From assembly GCF_024807845.1 (NCBI RefSeq), contig NZ_JANUEQ010000003.1, forward strand, positions 496,001 to 560,000: DNA of 64,000 nucleotides, in the 5' to 3' direction. The DNA comes from Klebsiella sp. BIGb0407. GTDB taxonomy: Bacteria; Pseudomonadota; Gammaproteobacteria; Enterobacterales; Enterobacteriaceae. Positions within the stretch are counted from its first letter, which is position 1. Each line of letters starts with the position of its first letter. The notes under the pieces are model-generated. The model saw nothing but the letters and a program-made list of their open reading frames with translations. It did no database searches and was not told the DNA's origin. Positions 24,898-40,785 of this stretch are shown here, piece by piece. The translations under genes and the position numbers were made by a program.

Positions 24898-24936
24898 AAA
24901 AAAAGGCCCTTCCATTAGTGGAAGGGCCTTTTTCTT
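24898..24936 (+). terminator. Terminator of hcp-hcr
   Basis: Thirteen-base arms AAAGGCCCTTCCA/TGGAAGGGCCTTT with loop TTAG, an A run before and a T run after. Probably bidirectional. Confidence 0.92.
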
Positions 24937-25332
24937 AACAAGTTATCCTCGTAATAAAAATACCTATTCCCTTAATCGTCGCCTTTTAGAACCGACAGAT
25001 AAATCAAGAAGTTCACCGCTCTAATCGCAAATAACTCATATCGATATAAATCCATTATATTGGTTCTTAATATCAATTATTAGCAATGAAACACAATACA
25101 ATTAAAAAATGACCAGCCTCTGATTATAACTCTATTTTAATCCTTGCAGAGATCGAATAAATCATTTAATGAATGCAGAATGAAATAATTCACACGTATA
25201 ATTATACAACCTGCATTTTAATATAGGATTATATTGATTGACTAAAATAAAATCAGCTTTAAGATGGTATTTGAAAATGATGACTCACTTATATTTATTC
25301 TCATCTCTTAAGCAAAAAGACATGGAGGTTAT
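24937..25332. other. AT-rich leader region of the darobactin-type cluster
   Basis: 396 bp with no convincing gene and clearly lower G+C than hcr before it. A perfect palindrome GTATAATTATAC at 25196-25207 contains a consensus -10 hexamer TATAAT. No good -35 hexamer was found at the right distance, so promoter placement is tentative. Confidence 0.5.
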
Positions 25333-25521
25333 ATGGATACAATCATCGATCAAAAAACAATATTATCATCAAGTCAGTTACATGAGCAATTAACAATATT
25401 AAATCAAAGTGTAAAAGGAATGCTTCCAGCCATTAACACCAAGAATATTGATGACATATTACACTTACCTCAACAAACAACCGCGCTGGCCTGGAATTGG
25501 TCAAAGGGCTTTAATTATTAA
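25333..25521 (+). CDS. darA: Darobactin-family RiPP precursor peptide
   Basis: 62-aa precursor. Residues 1-53 are a leader rich in Gln, Leu and Ile. Residues 54-60 are W-N-W-S-K-G-F, which differs from the darobactin A core (WNWSKSF) only at position 6, Gly for Ser. Residues 61-62 (NY) form a short tail to be trimmed. The residues cross-linked in darobactin (W1 to W3 by an ether, W3 to K5 by a C-C bond) are all present. GGAGG lies four bases before the ATG. The order precursor, permease, fusion protein, ATPase, radical SAM enzyme is that of darABCDE. The gene is too short for composition statistics; assignment rests on core and context, which agree. Confidence 0.93.
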   Translation: MDTIIDQKTILSSSQLHEQLTILNQSVKGMLPAINTKNIDDILHLPQQTTALAWNWSKGFNY

Positions 25522-25589
25522 CAAAAGCAATTAAAGTCACATGATAAAACGTTTACGTTTTGAATAACGCAAAGCTCTGTTTCATCAGG

Positions 25590-25613
25590 ACGAGACTCAT
25601 TTATGAGTCTCGT
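25590..25613 (+). other. Hairpin between darA and darB
   Basis: Perfect 10-bp stem ACGAGACTCA/TGAGTCTCGT with loop TTTA, 68 bp after the darA stop. There is no T run, so it is more likely an mRNA-stabilising or attenuating structure that keeps precursor transcript in excess than a full terminator. Confidence 0.6.
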
Positions 25614-25616
25614 ATC

Positions 25617-25712
25617 GCGGCAAGTCGGAGAATCTTGATGAGCTTATGCAGATAAGAATTCGGATGAATGAATGCCGCCAACACGCATACAACTTGAAGT
25701 ATGGCGGGTATA
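25617..25712 (+). repeat. Truncated ERIC element between darA and darB
   Basis: About 96 bp match the central and right part of an ERIC repeat: GCGGCAAGTCGGAGAATC, GAGCTTATGCAGATAAG, the GCCAAC block and the end AACTTGAAGTATGGCGGGTA with TA. The left end of the usual 127 bp is missing and the hairpin described above takes its place. Confidence 0.7.
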
Positions 25713-25745
25713 TCTAAGTAATTAAACTAACAGGCACCGCTGCTG

Positions 25746-28133
25746 ATGAATTTAAATATATTCATTAATGACTTAAAACTAAAACCGGCTGCGGCTATTT
25801 TAGCTCTGATGATTACTGTTATTGGTTTAGCTACGACAGTTCTGGTTATTATGCTTTATATTACTGACCGTAGTATTGATCGGGGTCTCTCTGAATCTGA
25901 ACAACTATACCGAATTGAAAGCCAGTTTAATCTCCCGAATGGCGATACTGTACGTTCGGCAAAAATTCCGCTTCCATTAGTCGAAGCACTACAAAAACAT
26001 CCCGATATTGAAAGCGTGGGCTATACCTGGCGGCTGGATGCCCAACTCAATCATCAAGGGCGCATTATTCCCCATATATCTGTATTTGCCGTTACACCTG
26101 CATTTATGGAACAACTGCATCCTTACCGTAATCATTTACCGGCTCCAGGACCGAATGAAATCTACATCACTGCGGATTTTAATCGCAAGTATCTCGGACT
26201 TGACGATCCTCTTGGTAAAATAGTTAATCTGGGGGAAAGTGGGCAGTTTATTATCAAAGCGATTGTTGAGCCTCAGCCCAGCAGCAGCCTTAATTTTCCG
26301 GCCATTATTGCCTTCACTCCAGAGCGAGTTGAGGGATATCAGGATAAACGGCTCGACTGGTACGATACCCACGTCTATACCTTTGCTCGACTTCATTCTG
26401 GTCACTCACATTTTAATCAGCAAATACTGTCTGATATCGTCACCCATAACGCACCACAACTCGCGGGCGTACCTTTTACGCCGTCATCATTTCTTACGTT
26501 TAGTGCCCGACCTATCCAGGATATGCACTACAACCATGGCTATGCCGATGAGCTTGCTACCACGCGTGAAAAATCCTTACTTTATATTCTGTATATTGCC
26601 GCGCTGTTTGTCCTGCTTTCTACCACTATCAATTTTTTCAACATCAACGGTATTCTCAATGCCGCCAGGCTACCAAGCCTGCATATCAAGCGTAGCGTTG
26701 GTGCTTCAAATACTCAGCTCCTGACTGAATCATTGAGTCTGTTATTACCCCAATTCCTGATAACGGTGACATTAGCTGGCTTGTTCCTCTGGGGGCTGGT
26801 ACAGCTCTCACCCGATATCAATAACCTGTTCGCTCATCAGTCAGTCATGCAAATATTGGCGATATTTACCGGCATAGCGCTGTTTACTGGCTTGATTATG
26901 CTGAGCTCACATTTGCTCAATCTTTCACTCTTTATCTACAGTAAGCAGGCCTCACATAGCCTGAGCCGCTATCAAAACAGACAAACTAATTACAATAATC
27001 GAATAATGATGGTGATACAGCTGGTGGTAACAGGGATCACTGTTTATCTGTGGGCTGGGGTAATGACCCAAAATTACACAGTAGAAAATACCGATTTTGG
27101 TTATCAGAAAACGCACCGTTTAACGTTCTCACTGGATGAGAGTTTCTATTCGTCGGGTAGCCTGCATGAGTTACGGCAGAGACTCAAATCAATAGATAAC
27201 GCCTCAAACCTCAGTCTAAGTAGCTGGCAGCCCTTTGATATGTCGCGCCAGATACTCAGCGTGCAGCACGCTCAGCAGTCGGTACATAACCAATTTACTA
27301 CCGTTAATGCCCTTTATGGTGATAAAAACTTTAGCGATGTCTGGGGCTTAACCGCGCTGGCAGGCCGGAAAAACAGGCTGTTAGCGAGCTCAGATGACCA
27401 CGTATCGCATGCTATCGTCACCCGGGAATTTATGCATGCTATGGGGCAAAAGAGCTTCGATGAGGTGCTGAATACTCGCTATTACATCCCCTATCCAGAA
27501 CAACAACAGGAGCTGCGCGTATTGCAGATAGTGGAGGATTTTGACCTCGGAGAACACCTTCCCTCCCCACAGCCGCTAATCATTTTTATCAATGACCGTC
27601 TGGAAAAATTTGCAACACTGTCATATTCGCATCAGCAGTATTTGCCAGCCCTTTACACACTGCTTAAACGCTATGGCCCCCCAGGTCTGTCAATACAAAC
27701 GGTCGAGCAAATTCATAACCACCATTTTCAGAACGCTCAACTGATGCTCAATGTCATTATGCTTACCGCGATACTGGCGCTGGTCGTTATGGTGATAAGT
27801 ACCCTGATCATCAGTATTTCAGAAGCGCAACGGTTAAACGGCACGCTAAAAATCATGGAGGCAGTGGGAGGCTCTGTTGCCACCAGCATGGTTTTTTTTC
27901 TACGACTTTATGTCCTGCCAATCGTGCTTTCGTTAGCCGTAGCACTTCTCTCGGGTAGCCTGCTATTAAGAAGCTGGTTACAGCAGTATCAGTCTGTGAG
28001 CGGAGTGGTTTACATCAATGCGTTTGGCTCTCTGTTACTCCTGGGCCTCGTGGTTGTTTCCATCATGGCGATAGCCTTGGTGCTGTGTAATGTTCAAGGC
28101 ACCAGATGCCAGTTAAAGCAGAAGGCTGCCTGA
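25746..28133 (+). CDS. darB: ABC transporter permease of the darobactin-type cluster
   Basis: 795-aa FtsX/MacB-type permease with eight membrane segments in two blocks: about 18-40, 279-300, 330-352 and 368-397, then 420-440, 667-690, 716-740 and 757-782. Each block holds a large extracytoplasmic domain between its first and later segments. In the darobactin system DarB forms the inner-membrane channel of a tripartite exporter with DarC and DarD. A clear ribosome-binding site is lacking before the ATG. The TGA stop overlaps the darC start (TGATG). It could in principle be a MacB-like exporter of something else; the neighbours argue for the modified peptide. Confidence 0.88.
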   Translation: MNLNIFINDLKLKPAAAILALMITVIGLATTVLVIMLYITDRSIDRGLSESEQLYRIESQFNLPNGDTVRSAKIPLPLVEALQKHPDIESVGYTWRLDAQLNHQGRIIPHISVFAVTPAFMEQLHPYRNHLPAPGPNEIYITADFNRKYLGLDDPLGKIVNLGESGQFIIKAIVEPQPSSSLNFPAIIAFTPERVEGYQDKRLDWYDTHVYTFARLHSGHSHFNQQILSDIVTHNAPQLAGVPFTPSSFLTFSARPIQDMHYNHGYADELATTREKSLLYILYIAALFVLLSTTINFFNINGILNAARLPSLHIKRSVGASNTQLLTESLSLLLPQFLITVTLAGLFLWGLVQLSPDINNLFAHQSVMQILAIFTGIALFTGLIMLSSHLLNLSLFIYSKQASHSLSRYQNRQTNYNNRIMMVIQLVVTGITVYLWAGVMTQNYTVENTDFGYQKTHRLTFSLDESFYSSGSLHELRQRLKSIDNASNLSLSSWQPFDMSRQILSVQHAQQSVHNQFTTVNALYGDKNFSDVWGLTALAGRKNRLLASSDDHVSHAIVTREFMHAMGQKSFDEVLNTRYYIPYPEQQQELRVLQIVEDFDLGEHLPSPQPLIIFINDRLEKFATLSYSHQQYLPALYTLLKRYGPPGLSIQTVEQIHNHHFQNAQLMLNVIMLTAILALVVMVISTLIISISEAQRLNGTLKIMEAVGGSVATSMVFFLRLYVLPIVLSLAVALLSGSLLLRSWLQQYQSVSGVVYINAFGSLLLLGLVVVSIMAIALVLCNVQGTRCQLKQKAA

Positions 28134-29389
28134 TGGATATTCAACTGGATAACAAAAATACGGCGCATCGATTAGCAAAAGGGCTAGTCGCTCTGGCGCT
28201 GATTCTATTTGCTCTGTTATGCCTGTGGTTGATAACACTTTTCAGAACAGAAAAAGTGACACGAATCCCCTTAGCCAGCATCACTCTCCATTCCGTACAA
28301 CGAGGTACATTTACTGACAGGCTGGTAACTCGGGCAGTGGCAATACCCGGCAAAAGTGTGATGGTAACCTCTGAACGCGGCGGCACGATAACAGCTATCC
28401 GCCAGACTGAATCCAGTGAGATTAAAACAGGCGACCTTATTGCTCAACTGTCCAATGATGACTTTGTTTTACAGGTGACATCGCGAATTGCCGATGTCAC
28501 TGAACAAATCAATAACCTGCGTAATATTCGGCGATTGCTGGAAAAAGATGACCTTGAAACTCGCCTTGCTCAGCAAGATGCACAGCATCAAACAGATAAA
28601 CGCCATAAAGAGGTGGTGCGCAAAAAGATATTGTACGAACGCGGTATTATGGAAAAGGCCACCTATGAACAGCTGCTGGATGAACTGGCATACTGGAAAA
28701 AACGCGACAGGGTTTTAACCACTTATCAGACACAGCAAGAAAGCGTACATCCGTTCCGGCTTACAGAAATAGAGTCTTCACTCAATTATCTGGAAAAACT
28801 GATAACGCAGACAGAAAAAAGCCTGGAGAAACTCACCATCACCGCTCCAATCGACGGCATTCTCTCACCCTTAACAATGAAAATTGGCCAGCAAATTAAA
28901 GCCGGAGAACAAGTCGCCACCTTAGATAATACGGAGAGTTATTATTTTGAAACCTCACTGAGTGAATACTATCTGGACAAAATCAAACCCCGGGACAGGG
29001 TTAGCGCACATTATGCTGGTATAGATATTCCTCTCGTTATTATTTCGGTCTCATCTCAGGTAGAAAATGGCAAATTTATTGCGAGACTTGCTCTTGCTCA
29101 CCCACAACCCTTGTCGTTAAAACGCGGGCAGTCTGTCGATCTTCAGATTTCATTAGCCACAATGCCGGATGTATTACATATCCCTTCCAGTGCCGTTTTT
29201 ATCGAAGAAAACAGTACCTCCGTTTATCTCTATGATGAGAAACAGCACCGCGCTATTAAAACCGCGGTTGTGATTAAACGTCAGGGAGAAACCGAGTCGG
29301 AAGTCGTCAGTGGGATATCGCCAGGGCAACAGGTCGTGGTCTTTACTGACAGCCACATAGCCAAATCTAACATTATCGAGTTTGAATAA
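28133..29389 (+). CDS. darC: HlyD-type membrane fusion protein of the darobactin-type cluster
   Basis: 418 aa: a short cytoplasmic N-terminus, one membrane segment (about 17-38), a lipoyl half-motif, a coiled-coil hairpin (about 115-230), the second lipoyl half (KLTITAPIDGILSPL) and beta-barrel domains. This is the periplasmic adaptor that links DarB to an outer-membrane channel, probably TolC encoded elsewhere. The ATG at 28133 is preferred because AAGG lies eight bases before it and it overlaps the darB stop; an ATG at 28106 would add nine residues. Confidence 0.88.
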   Translation: MDIQLDNKNTAHRLAKGLVALALILFALLCLWLITLFRTEKVTRIPLASITLHSVQRGTFTDRLVTRAVAIPGKSVMVTSERGGTITAIRQTESSEIKTGDLIAQLSNDDFVLQVTSRIADVTEQINNLRNIRRLLEKDDLETRLAQQDAQHQTDKRHKEVVRKKILYERGIMEKATYEQLLDELAYWKKRDRVLTTYQTQQESVHPFRLTEIESSLNYLEKLITQTEKSLEKLTITAPIDGILSPLTMKIGQQIKAGEQVATLDNTESYYFETSLSEYYLDKIKPRDRVSAHYAGIDIPLVIISVSSQVENGKFIARLALAHPQPLSLKRGQSVDLQISLATMPDVLHIPSSAVFIEENSTSVYLYDEKQHRAIKTAVVIKRQGETESEVVSGISPGQQVVVFTDSHIAKSNIIEFE

Positions 29390-29390
29390 T

Positions 29391-30050
29391 ATGATAAATC
29401 TGGAACATGCTGAAAAGGCTCACGCCACGCGAACAATCAAAACGCTGGCACTGCGCGATATTAACCTGCGTGTCGAAGCTGGGGAGTTTGTCTCTATTAT
29501 GGGGCAATCCGGATCAGGGAAAACAACATTACTTAACGTTCTGGGGATGTTTGAAACACTGGATACAGGCAAATTACAACTGGCTCAGCAAGAAGTGACT
29601 CAAATGGGTTACAGCCAAAAAATAGCACTTCGTCGCCAGCTGATTGGTTATATCTTTCAATCCTTCAATTTGATTGATTTTATGTCGGTATATGAAAATA
29701 TCGAGCTCCCCCTTAAGTATCGCAGTGTACCCAAGGCTGAGCGCAAAAATCGCGTAACACAAACTCTTGAACAGTTCGGATTATCCGCCAGAAGTACCCA
29801 TTATCCGGCACAACTTTCCGGAGGCCAGCAACAGCGAGTGGCCATTGCTCGCGCTATGATATCCCGGCCAAAGCTCATTTTAGCTGATGAACCCACGGGG
29901 AATTTAGACAGTAAAAACAGTAAGATAGTTTTAAAGCAGCTAACGGAAATTAATCAGTCTGGAACCACCGTTATTATGGTCACCCATTCTTTAGAAGCCG
30001 CAGATTATGCCGGGAGGCACCTGATAATGAAGGATGGTTATCTCACATGA
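29391..30050 (+). CDS. darD: ABC transporter ATPase of the darobactin-type cluster
   Basis: 219-aa MacB/LolD-type nucleotide-binding protein. It has Walker A GQSGSGKT, a Q-loop within [10 protein letters not shown], the signature [14 protein letters not shown], Walker B LILADEP, the D-loop GNLD and the switch histidine VTHS. It powers export by the DarB-DarC complex. The ATG at 29391 lies one base after the darC stop; a TTG at 29382 would add three residues. Confidence 0.9.
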
Positions 30051-30069
30051 TAGAGTAAGGAGATTATAA

Positions 30070-31395
30070 ATGAATGGACTCATACCTGTTATTCAGCTCG
30101 AGACAGATCCAACATCAACGCTAAATGCAAGCGAGCTCGAAAAAATCGCCACCCAAGATTATCGACAAATGAGTGCTTACCTACTTGGTCAAATATCTGA
30201 ACTAGATTTATTAGATACTGAAGAGCAAAATATTTTTTATATTGAGAATCAAAGAGAAATCACAGTACAACCACTGATTGCAAAAAAATTAGTTATCGTG
30301 TTAAAAGTGACTCGTTTATGTAATTTACGTTGTACTTATTGCCACTCCTGGGCTGAAGGCCCTAACCAGACAATGTCATTTGAGATAATGGCAAGAGTTA
30401 TCCATAAAATCTTATCAATTCCGAATATTAAACGATTTGAATTTGTCTGGCATGGTGGTGAAGTAACACTACTTAAACCATTACTCTTTCAGAAATTAAT
30501 ATGGCTACAGCAAAAATTCAAGAAACCAGAACATTATATTACTAACTCAATGCAATCAAATGCAGTGAATATTTCAGATGATTGGTTATCCTTTATCAAA
30601 GGAATTGGAATGCATGTTGGTATTAGCCTGGACGGTATCCCTGCTATCCATGATTCTCGTAGAGTCGATTATAGAGGTATAGGAACTTCACAACGTGTTG
30701 CATTGGGAATTGAAAAACTTAAGCAACATAATATACCTTTTGGAGCCTTGATCGTTGTTGATAAACAAGTATATAAAACAGACCATCGAAAAATGTTCGA
30801 TTATTTCATAAAAATAGGTCTTAATAATATCGAATTCCTTAATATCGTCCCTGATAATCGTACTCCTGCCGGAGGTAAAATCGATGATAGTTACATTAGT
30901 TATGCTGATTTCATTTCCTTTCTGACTCAAACATTTAGAATTTGGTGGAATGAATACCGCACCACAATGCTTATTCCACAATTTAGTGATTTTATCCACG
31001 CAATAAAATTTCCAGGTGCTCAATTAGCTGCCTGTTACTGGTCAGAAAATTGCTCACAAGAAGTTATTACAATTGAGCCAAACGGAGATGTCTCACCCTG
31101 TGATAAATATGTGGGTGACGCAGGTAGTCAGTATGGTTCATTGATAAAAAACGATCTGGCAGATCTACTGGCCAATTCAGTACATAACCAAATAGCAGTA
31201 CGTGAAGAACAAGATGCTTTTAATAAAATGCGCCAATGTCGCTGGTTTTCCATCTGCCAGGGAGGGTGTCCTCATGATCGTGTGATTAATCGACGGCATG
31301 TCATTGGTTACCAGGATCATTGCTGTGGTACAGGTAAACTATTGGCGGTGATTGCAGAGTGTCTGAATAAGGAACAAAATGCCGTCTCATCATAG
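30070..31395 (+). CDS. darE: Radical SAM/SPASM peptide cyclase of the darobactin-type cluster
   Basis: 441 aa. The radical SAM cluster is bound by C84, C88 and C91 in RLCNLRCTYCHSW. The C-terminal SPASM domain has Cys-rich segments for auxiliary clusters (CYWSENCSQEVITIEPNGDVSPCDKY and RWFSICQGGCPHDR...HCCGTGK, given in part). In darobactin, DarE alone makes both the aryl ether between W1 and W3 and the C-C bond between W3 and K5. AAGGAG precedes the start. Codon choice and G+C are more AT-rich than in the transporter genes. Confidence 0.92.
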   Translation: MNGLIPVIQLETDPTSTLNASELEKIATQDYRQMSAYLLGQISELDLLDTEEQNIFYIENQREITVQPLIAKKLVIVLKVTRLCNLRCTYCHSWAEGPNQTMSFEIMARVIHKILSIPNIKRFEFVWHGGEVTLLKPLLFQKLIWLQQKFKKPEHYITNSMQSNAVNISDDWLSFIKGIGMHVGISLDGIPAIHDSRRVDYRGIGTSQRVALGIEKLKQHNIPFGALIVVDKQVYKTDHRKMFDYFIKIGLNNIEFLNIVPDNRTPAGGKIDDSYISYADFISFLTQTFRIWWNEYRTTMLIPQFSDFIHAIKFPGAQLAACYWSENCSQEVITIEPNGDVSPCDKYVGDAGSQYGSLIKNDLADLLANSVHNQIAVREEQDAFNKMRQCRWFSICQGGCPHDRVINRRHVIGYQDHCCGTGKLLAVIAECLNKEQNAVSS

Positions 31396-31438: not shown

Positions 31439-31777
31439 ATGGACCCAGCTAACCTGATACTTCCTGATGCCCCGCAAAAAGCAGTATGTGCTAAGTATAA
31501 TTTACCCCTATCTCCGCCTGAAGAAATGGTCGCGATAGCGCTGGATTCATTGCATAAATCCCCCATTTACGGAACCCGGATCGAGCTTCCTGAGAATGGT
31601 ACTATAAGCTGGTTTATCCATTGCGGGGAACATTCAGCTGCAAACGATTTTTATCAACCGCTTCATCTTCATCATTTAGCAGAAACACTCCCGGAAGTAA
31701 TTAAATATTTGTTCCTACCTGCCGGGGCTAAATTTATAATAGATCGAGAGGGCTATGAGGATGTATGGATAAGCTAA
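31439..31777 (+). CDS. Imm33-like protein downstream of darE
   Basis: 112 aa. The second half resembles the Imm33 (DUF2185-like) family: ISWFIHCGEHSAANDFYQP, LHLHHLAETLPEVIKYL, and the ending FIIDREGYEDVWIS. Such proteins occur as predicted immunity proteins near toxins but also alone. AGGA lies eight bases before the ATG. It follows darE by 43 bp on the same strand and may be co-transcribed. Whether it protects the producer against the peptide is not known; BamA-targeting antibiotics act outside the cytoplasm, and this protein has no signal peptide, so another role is quite possible. Confidence 0.6.
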   Translation: MDPANLILPDAPQKAVCAKYNLPLSPPEEMVAIALDSLHKSPIYGTRIELPENGTISWFIHCGEHSAANDFYQPLHLHHLAETLPEVIKYLFLPAGAKFIIDREGYEDVWIS

Positions 31778-39966: not shown

Positions 39967-40785
39967 ATGATTAACTCTATATCAGATACTATATCTTGCA
40001 CTCAGACTCCATCGACATCTCAGATTAAAGCATTACAACAATATAATTTAACAGACAACATTACCAATTTACTTAATTTACCCGAAGAGCTTCACCGTAA
40101 AATCGCCTGGAATCTTGATGCCAAAAGTTATGCCTGTCTGCGTGAAACTTGTTCAACATTAAGTGAGAACTTACATTCCTTTGCTATGCTCGATAGTATA
40201 TTAACAAAAGAAACCTGTACTGGGGAGTTCAAGGAAAAAAGTGGATTGATATTAAAAGATAATTCAATTAATAGCATTTGTAAGCAGGAACATCTACTTT
40301 GGGCAATAAAAACGCTACGTTCAATATATTTCAACGAAGAAAAAAATATCACTGCTCTTGATTTATCTATACCCATAGATGTAGAGCCAGAAAAAAAGAT
40401 GGCTTTATTTTTAATGGTTGAGTCCATTTCTGAGGAGATAAACAATAATTTTTTCAAATATTTCATTAATATTATAGAAGAACACAATATTCATGTTTTA
40501 AGTTTTATTTTAGATATTAACTCAGATAACACCCAACCTGGAGAGTCTTTTCCCGCCGAGTTGTTTTTTAAAACACTACAAACTATTTTTGATAAAACGG
40601 CCAGCGCTAATAAATACTTCATTGCTGTTTTAGCATCCGAACTGATGCAGCGCTGGAATGACAGACCACCACGCGGCGTAGATAAAACAACAATAGAGAC
40701 AATGAATATCCTGTATCACAATTTAGTCAGTACCGGAGAAACAGCCAGACGTATCGCCATGGAAGCAAGTTTGAAACTATATTGA
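39967..40785 (+). CDS. F-box-like protein, putative effector
   Basis: 272 aa, AT-rich. The N-terminal 35 residues are rich in Ser and Thr without a hydrophobic signal. Residues 38-69 fit the eukaryotic F-box pattern: LPEELHRKIAWNLDAKSYAC followed by LRETCSTLSENLH (LP-E-L-x-K-I-x-x-x-L-D, then L-R-x-x-C). The rest is helical and without known repeats. In eukaryotes and in secreted effectors of Legionella, Agrobacterium and Ralstonia, the F-box binds Skp1 of SCF ubiquitin ligases. A Ser-rich N-terminus is compatible with type III secretion, but no secretion system is in the window. Horizontal origin is likely; it could also be an unrelated protein with a chance match. Confidence 0.6.
   Translation: MINSISDTISCTQTPSTSQIKALQQYNLTDNITNLLNLPEELHRKIAWNLDAKSYACLRETCSTLSENLHSFAMLDSILTKETCTGEFKEKSGLILKDNSINSICKQEHLLWAIKTLRSIYFNEEKNITALDLSIPIDVEPEKKMALFLMVESISEEINNNFFKYFINIIEEHNIHVLSFILDINSDNTQPGESFPAELFFKTLQTIFDKTASANKYFIAVLASELMQRWNDRPPRGVDKTTIETMNILYHNLVSTGETARRIAMEASLKLY

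Follow-up and report, generated by a model that had tools for sequence, protein, structure and literature searches.

Gene organization and family identity of the dar cluster

We analyzed a 64,000-nucleotide stretch of the genome of Klebsiella sp. BIGb0407 (hereafter the window), in which five co-directional open reading frames, darA-B-C-D-E (25333-31395, plus strand, all five frames open), form a darobactin-type gene cluster. An initial annotation, made from the DNA letters, had proposed such a cluster, and the five genes were found at the position, strand, and order that it gave. The assignment to the darobactin family is supported by NCBIfam models, a tree of DarE, a gene order common to other loci, and an alignment of DarA. 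The darA and darB genes are separated by a 224-nucleotide (nt) spacer. The genes from darB to darE are tightly packed, given the likely start codons of darC (ATG 28133, which has one base in common with the darB stop) and darD (ATG 29391). The features are collected in Table 1.

Table 1. Features of the dar locus in the window.
Feature	Position	Strand	Basis or remark
Terminator-like hairpin after hcr	24900..24933	+	Read from sequence; sets dar apart from upstream genes
Likely darA promoter, TTGACT-16-TAAGAT	25238..25265	+	9/12 consensus; kept in 5/5 clade loci
darA, 62-residue precursor	25333..25521	+	NF038004 match; aligned with 12 other precursors
Core WNWSKGF, then NY	25492..25512	+	Read in darA
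Stem-loop, darA-darB spacer	25590..25613	+	Folding; not markedly stronger than those 3' of other genes
darB, MacB/FtsX-type permease	25746..28133	+	NF038008; MacB_PCD and FtsX domains
darC, HlyD-type periplasmic adaptor	28133..29389	+	NF038010; start from start context
darD, ATP-binding cassette (ABC) ATPase	29391..30050	+	NF038007; Walker A, LSGGQ, and Walker B strings
darE, radical SAM/SPASM maturase	30070..31395	+	NF038005; CNLRCTYC and 11 shared cysteines; tree
Imm33-like gene 3' of darE, probably outside the cluster	31439..31777	+	PF24719

Each of the five proteins had its own darobactin model as its top NCBIfam match, three of them over the cut-off. DarE scored 725.5 bits against NF038005 (cut-off 650, E = 1.9e-218). 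The DarBCD exporter is present in the expected order, with DarB (NF038008, 886.9 bits, cut-off 700, E = 9.7e-267) and DarC (NF038010, 452 bits, cut-off 450, E = 1.7e-135) over the cut-off and DarD just under it (NF038007, 361.7 bits, cut-off 375, E = 1.2e-108). The sole family match of DarA was NF038004 (34.8 bits, cut-off 45, E = 1.3e-8). Because even the largest of these E-values, that of DarA, is so small, and the smallest, that of DarB, far smaller still, the resemblance is not due to chance. DarE also scored 228.1 bits with a sulfatase maturase model, and it was neither of the DarW type (507.4 of the 650 bits needed for NF041300) nor of the dynobactin DynA type (193.7 of 450 bits needed).

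In the tree, 13 DarE sequences formed one side of a branch with 100/100 support, with seven other SPASM maturases on the opposite side; DarE therefore did not fall among unrelated SPASM maturases, the result that the initial annotation had named as a refutation. The DarE rows comprised Vibrio crassostreae and 12 of the 14 enterobacterial sequences over the cut-off in our family draw, two from genus g23 (G318 and G374) being left out of the comparisons for a stop inside darE. The outgroup used seven of 16 SPASM loci, since the other nine had minus-strand matches, and the tree program flagged long branches meeting between DarE and the outgroup. Within DarE, the window grouped first with locus L002 (100/100), then with L040 (100/98), and then with genus g23 (98/99). 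Eleven cysteines, including those of CNLRCTYC, were common to all 13 DarE proteins.

Core peptide and predicted product

The C terminus of DarA reads ALA-WNWSKGF-NY, and W1, W3, and K5, the residues that are cross-linked in darobactin A, are all present. The initial annotation had called this core correctly, leaving unmentioned that it differs from published natural cores. Those in table 1 of PMC8694152 are WNWSKSF, WNWTKRF, WSWSRSF, WNWSRSF, WSWSKSF, and WKWSKNL, and the core classes described in PMC9055067 are WNWxKxF, WNWx(K/R)xF, and WT(F/Y)RF; WNWSKGF is compatible with the general WNWxKxF pattern. For a bicyclic product of this core, our script predicted 935.3926 Da ([M+2H]2+ 468.7036). 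The same script gave 965.4032 Da ([M+2H]2+ 483.7089) for darobactin A, equal to the values printed in PMC8694152.

The darobactin A cluster of Photorhabdus khanii, darABCDE, has the same gene order and precursor plan and shares W1, N2, W3, S4, K5, and F7, but the window has Gly6 where P. khanii has Ser6, a follower NY in place of QEI, and a leader that ends in LA in place of TA. DarE is about 54% identical to its counterparts in L048 and L049, which we took as Photorhabdus by their DarA, while DarB and DarC are only about 30% identical. Yersinia darobactins A, C, D, and E (PMC8694152, table 1) likewise have WxWS(K/R)xF cores and a short follower, but their cores end in SF with followers TQQ and similar, whereas that of the window ends in GF, followed by NY; DarE from loci L042-L044 is about 61-63% identical to that of the window. 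Darobactin D16, WNWSKAF, has a small residue 6 as well, but this is Ala, and PMC10107326 describes the compound as non-natural. The D16 core is naturally present beside darBCDE in a genome of genus g141 (L045 12578-12781, G237).

Since the residue-6 side chain of darobactin B faces the barrel lumen (PMC8694152) and residue 6 influences potency (PMC10107326), the Gly6 product may be weaker, which is a guess from these reports. A second precursor was sought in the window's genus; the six pattern matches in four genomes were three known darA cores and three sequences unlike precursors.

Distribution and relatives

Genomes were drawn from the family (392) and the order (394). DarE was over the cut-off in 14 family genomes from six genera (three in g1, one in g5, four in g23, three in g41, two in g138, and one in g141), and it was high-scoring in three of the four genomes of the window's genus. 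The order draw held three DarE carriers, all among these 14. The host chromosome had been described as E. coli-like, which is too loose, as the host is not E. coli and its guaB is 82.7% identical to that of E. coli. Across 5,426 complete E. coli genomes there was no match to the whole cluster (megablast) or to darE alone (blastn).

In 11 further enterobacterial loci, darB to darE and a precursor stood together in the order darA-B-C-D-E, and with V. crassostreae the same order, with a core beside darB, was found in 12 other loci. The core WNWSKGF recurred in a second species of the window's genus (L002, followed by NY) and in a further genus, g23, where two species carry it (L046 and L047, WNWSKGF-NYRPQ and WNWSKGF-NYKPQ). 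These three clusters also share the start of the follower and the promoter element with the window; DarE identity to the window is 90% for L002 and 75-76% for g23, where dar lies at other chromosomal sites. The remaining cores were WNWSKSF-NYQHK in L040, WNWSKAF in L045, WNWSFRF in L041, WNWSKSF in L042, L043, L048, and L049, and WSWSKSF in L044. A few extra N-terminal residues aside, the L042 and L044 precursors equal those of Y. frederiksenii A and Y. bercovieri E in PMC8694152, and the L049 precursor equals that of P. khanii darobactin A in its table 1 after four extra residues.

In L041 (5344-5532; G007, genus g5), the precursor, chosen by eye among small reading frames, has the core WNWSFRF and no follower and lies beside intact darBCDE. 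Phe5 replaces the cross-linked Lys/Arg, and the L041 DarE retains the 11 shared cysteines. This core was absent from the main texts of the open-licence PubMed Central (PMC) papers that we searched. The V. crassostreae cluster (L083) is on plasmid p1 (NZ_AP025478.1), which is typed as conjugative (MOBF, MPF_F), and has an extra ABC transporter gene 3' of darE.

For viral carriage, no relative was found among 13 candidate stretches in viral_contigs. Matches to 21 phage records were all below 60% identity, none with more than 80% coverage, and among the five phage matches listed, three were annotated as sulfatase maturases and two had no annotation.

Likely promoter and spacer elements

The element TTGAC, a 16-nt spacer, and a TAA(A/G)(A/G)T box was found 5' of darA in all five clade loci, at distances of 95, 95, 219, 104, and 106 nt, and the bases between the two boxes were alike as well. 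A consensus match alone is meaningless here because the region holds 13 promoter-like matches against 18.3 expected; the case for a likely promoter thus rests on conservation in the five loci.

The 110 nt after hcr gave a folding z-score of -4.52, and the hairpin listed in Table 1 was not among the results of the terminator scan. The idea that the stem-loop after darA is a special element was rejected, because the dar spacers had a mean z-score of -2.40 (n = 13) versus -2.04 in true control spacers (n = 16); an initial control set had given -1.69 over 22 stretches, six of them within coding sequence. The same spacer contains a stretch (25680-25716, CAACTTGAAGTATGGCGGGTAT) that we take to resemble a repeat often found between genes of related bacteria, and a similar stretch is present in L002.

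Chromosomal location and history

The initial annotation had put the cluster between hcp-hcr and a hypothetical gene. The hcp-hcr side held, with hcp and hcr (as well as guaA and bamB) supported by NCBIfam, whereas the downstream gene is Imm33-like (PF24719, E = 6.8e-35). In all three dar carriers of the window's genus, dar adjoins hcp-hcr on the side of ppx and of a gene that we take to be yfgF, whose product matches c-di-GMP phosphodiesterases under every cut-off. Relative to hcp-hcr, the cluster is on the right in the window and L002 and on the left in L040. It lies about 75 kb from guaA in G002, guaA is on another contig in G003, and the whole yfgF-to-guaA stretch of G001 contains neither hcp-hcr nor dar. 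The interval from the yfgF-like gene to guaA (10526-34852 in the window) is long and varies in content between the genus members examined, and it looks like an insertion hotspot.

Divergence was estimated with our own script (Nei-Gojobori) as synonymous divergence (dS) and its ratio to nonsynonymous divergence (dN/dS); saturation left no ratio for darA against G003 or for darD against G252, and the L046 darB row starts one codon late. Between the window and G003, dS was 0.62 for ppk, 0.67 for ppx, 0.81 for yfgF, 0.65 for hcp, and 0.69 for hcr, versus 1.65, 1.03, 1.01, and 1.13 for darB, darC, darD, and darE. Between the window and G002, darA to darE had dS values of 0.34-0.48, and 11 other genes 0.47-0.96. 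Because dS differs in this way between dar and its neighbors, and because the gene order differs, the data suggest that dar reached the window's genus more than once, with one arrival in the line of G003 and another in that of the window and G002; few genes and a simple estimator underlie this reading. The DarE tree alone gives no sign of separate arrivals, as the three g1 rows form a clade.

The GC content at third codon positions (GC3) of darE was 0.277, against 0.381-0.559 in 12 neighbors, while darB-darD (0.43-0.48) were not unusual; a low-GC argument for horizontal acquisition of dar was proposed earlier (PMC11547657). Between the window and L002, dN/dS was 0.21 for darA, 0.11 for darB, 0.10 for darC, and 0.13 for both darD and darE, values which indicate that the genes have been kept.

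Self-protection

A single BamA was over the cut-off in the window's genome. BamA was scored in 12 dar carriers and in 17 genomes lacking DarE over the cut-off, 29 in all, at positions taken from PMC10476194 other than 705. Residues G429, T434, E435, G443, and Q445 were kept in all 29. All of them also had Gly at the fourth position from the C terminus, which we presume to be 807 on the basis of the E. coli length. Position 394 was Tyr throughout and is Phe in E. coli, judging from the F394V change in PMC10476194. V430 and L426 of the window BamA were also seen in non-carriers. Y432F occurred in six of the 12 carriers and none of the 17 others; its DNA pattern, counted whether or not in bamA, was present in 82 of the 392 family genomes, including eight of the 14 DarE carriers and non-carriers of g141 and g138. 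Given this spread, we rejected Y432F as a mark of carriers and take it as a lineage trait. Target-site self-resistance was likewise rejected, none of the resistance changes being found among the scored positions. Because there is one BamA without any scored resistance change, self-protection is probably by DarBCD export (or low output), the simplest remaining idea.

We also weighed whether the Imm33-like gene is the immunity gene of the cluster. It lies 44 nt downstream of darE on the same strand, adjoins darE in both members of the genus in which it occurs (two of the three dar carriers of the genus), and has a dN/dS of 0.07. The third of these dar carriers lacks it, however, and only two of its 10 carriers among the family genomes (nine over the cut-off) have DarE over the cut-off, leaving eight without; its dS of 1.41, from few codons, is also unlike that of the dar genes (0.34-0.48). 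An immunity role is therefore improbable, and the gene is probably unrelated to the dar cluster.

Proposed function and alternatives

We conclude, with a probability of about 0.93, that this is a complete gene cluster for a darobactin-type ribosomally synthesized and post-translationally modified peptide, predicted to make an exported Gly6 analogue of darobactin A that would target BamA. We infer the cross-links, trimming, export, target, and activity from the darobactin family. The dar genes would be transcribed from their own promoter to yield the precursor DarA, in whose core DarE would form an ether link between W1 and W3 and a C-C bond between W3 and K5, by analogy with PMC9055067. A host protease encoded outside the cluster would cut off the leader and the two-residue follower, and DarBCD, as a MacB-like ABC exporter with its adaptor, would send the peptide out. 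The 935.3926-Da analogue would then bind the BamA of Gram-negative competitors at strand beta-1; darobactin binds beta-1 chiefly through backbone contacts (PMC8694152; PMC10476194).

Several points weigh against this conclusion. DarA and DarD are under their curated cut-offs (34.8 of 45 and 361.7 of 375 bits); the DarA shortfall is one of a score threshold, which lowers the label without excluding membership of the family. The Gly6 core is spelled out in none of the open-licence PMC papers whose main texts we searched. Several genomes of genus g23 (L015, L019, L020, and L047) carry interrupted or incomplete dar clusters: two have a stop within darE, a third gives a partial DarE match, and the darB of L047 is interrupted early by an in-frame stop. 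Intact g23 copies also exist, and the broken ones mean that carrying dar does not guarantee its use. Lastly, five predicted producers of other analogues yielded no detectable compound according to PMC8694152.

The last two points, together with the low GC3 of darE, also favor an intact-looking but silent cluster, retained through recent arrival and making no darobactin in nature. The dN/dS values (0.10-0.21) and the conserved promoter element argue instead for use at least until recently, and we consider silence unlikely, if worth keeping in mind. A monocyclic product with the ether only, like the WT(F/Y)RF daropeptides, would have a precedent in the DarE of another clade (PMC9055067), but W1, W3, and K5 are all present and WNWxKxF precursors yield the bicycle in that report, so this outcome is very improbable. 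An unrelated SPASM maturase cluster that merely resembles dar can be virtually dismissed, since DarE matches the DarW, sulfatase maturase, and DynA models but scores best, and over the cut-off, with its own, falls in the 100/100 clade, and is accompanied by a DarA-like precursor and DarBCD.

The known darobactin family thus gains a further member, with a core that is new relative to the papers searched and a kind of system that is not. New antibiotic leads against Gram-negative bacteria are few, and darobactins belong to them. Two genera that, judged by their precursors, are distinct from Photorhabdus, Yersinia, and Vibrio carry Gly6 in a natural core, which supplies a natural example at a residue with an effect on potency (PMC10107326). 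The dar clusters also display signs of repeated arrival and decay, and a carrier with none of the scored resistance changes in its BamA makes self-protection a direct experimental question. We offer one broader idea as speculative and rather doubtful: the clusters with LA-WNWSK(G/S)F-NY and their own promoter element may be a separate daropeptide lineage that moved among at least two enterobacterial genera, repeatedly into one, and whose Gly6 product is naturally tuned to be weaker or narrower and tolerated with an unchanged BamA. If so, self-protection in darobactin producers would become testable.

Other features of the window

Further downstream, a gene at 39967-40785 (plus strand) encodes a 272-residue protein with no NCBIfam match and a weak F-box match under the cut-off (E = 0.033). 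G001 encodes a protein 32% identical to it at the same place, after xseA.

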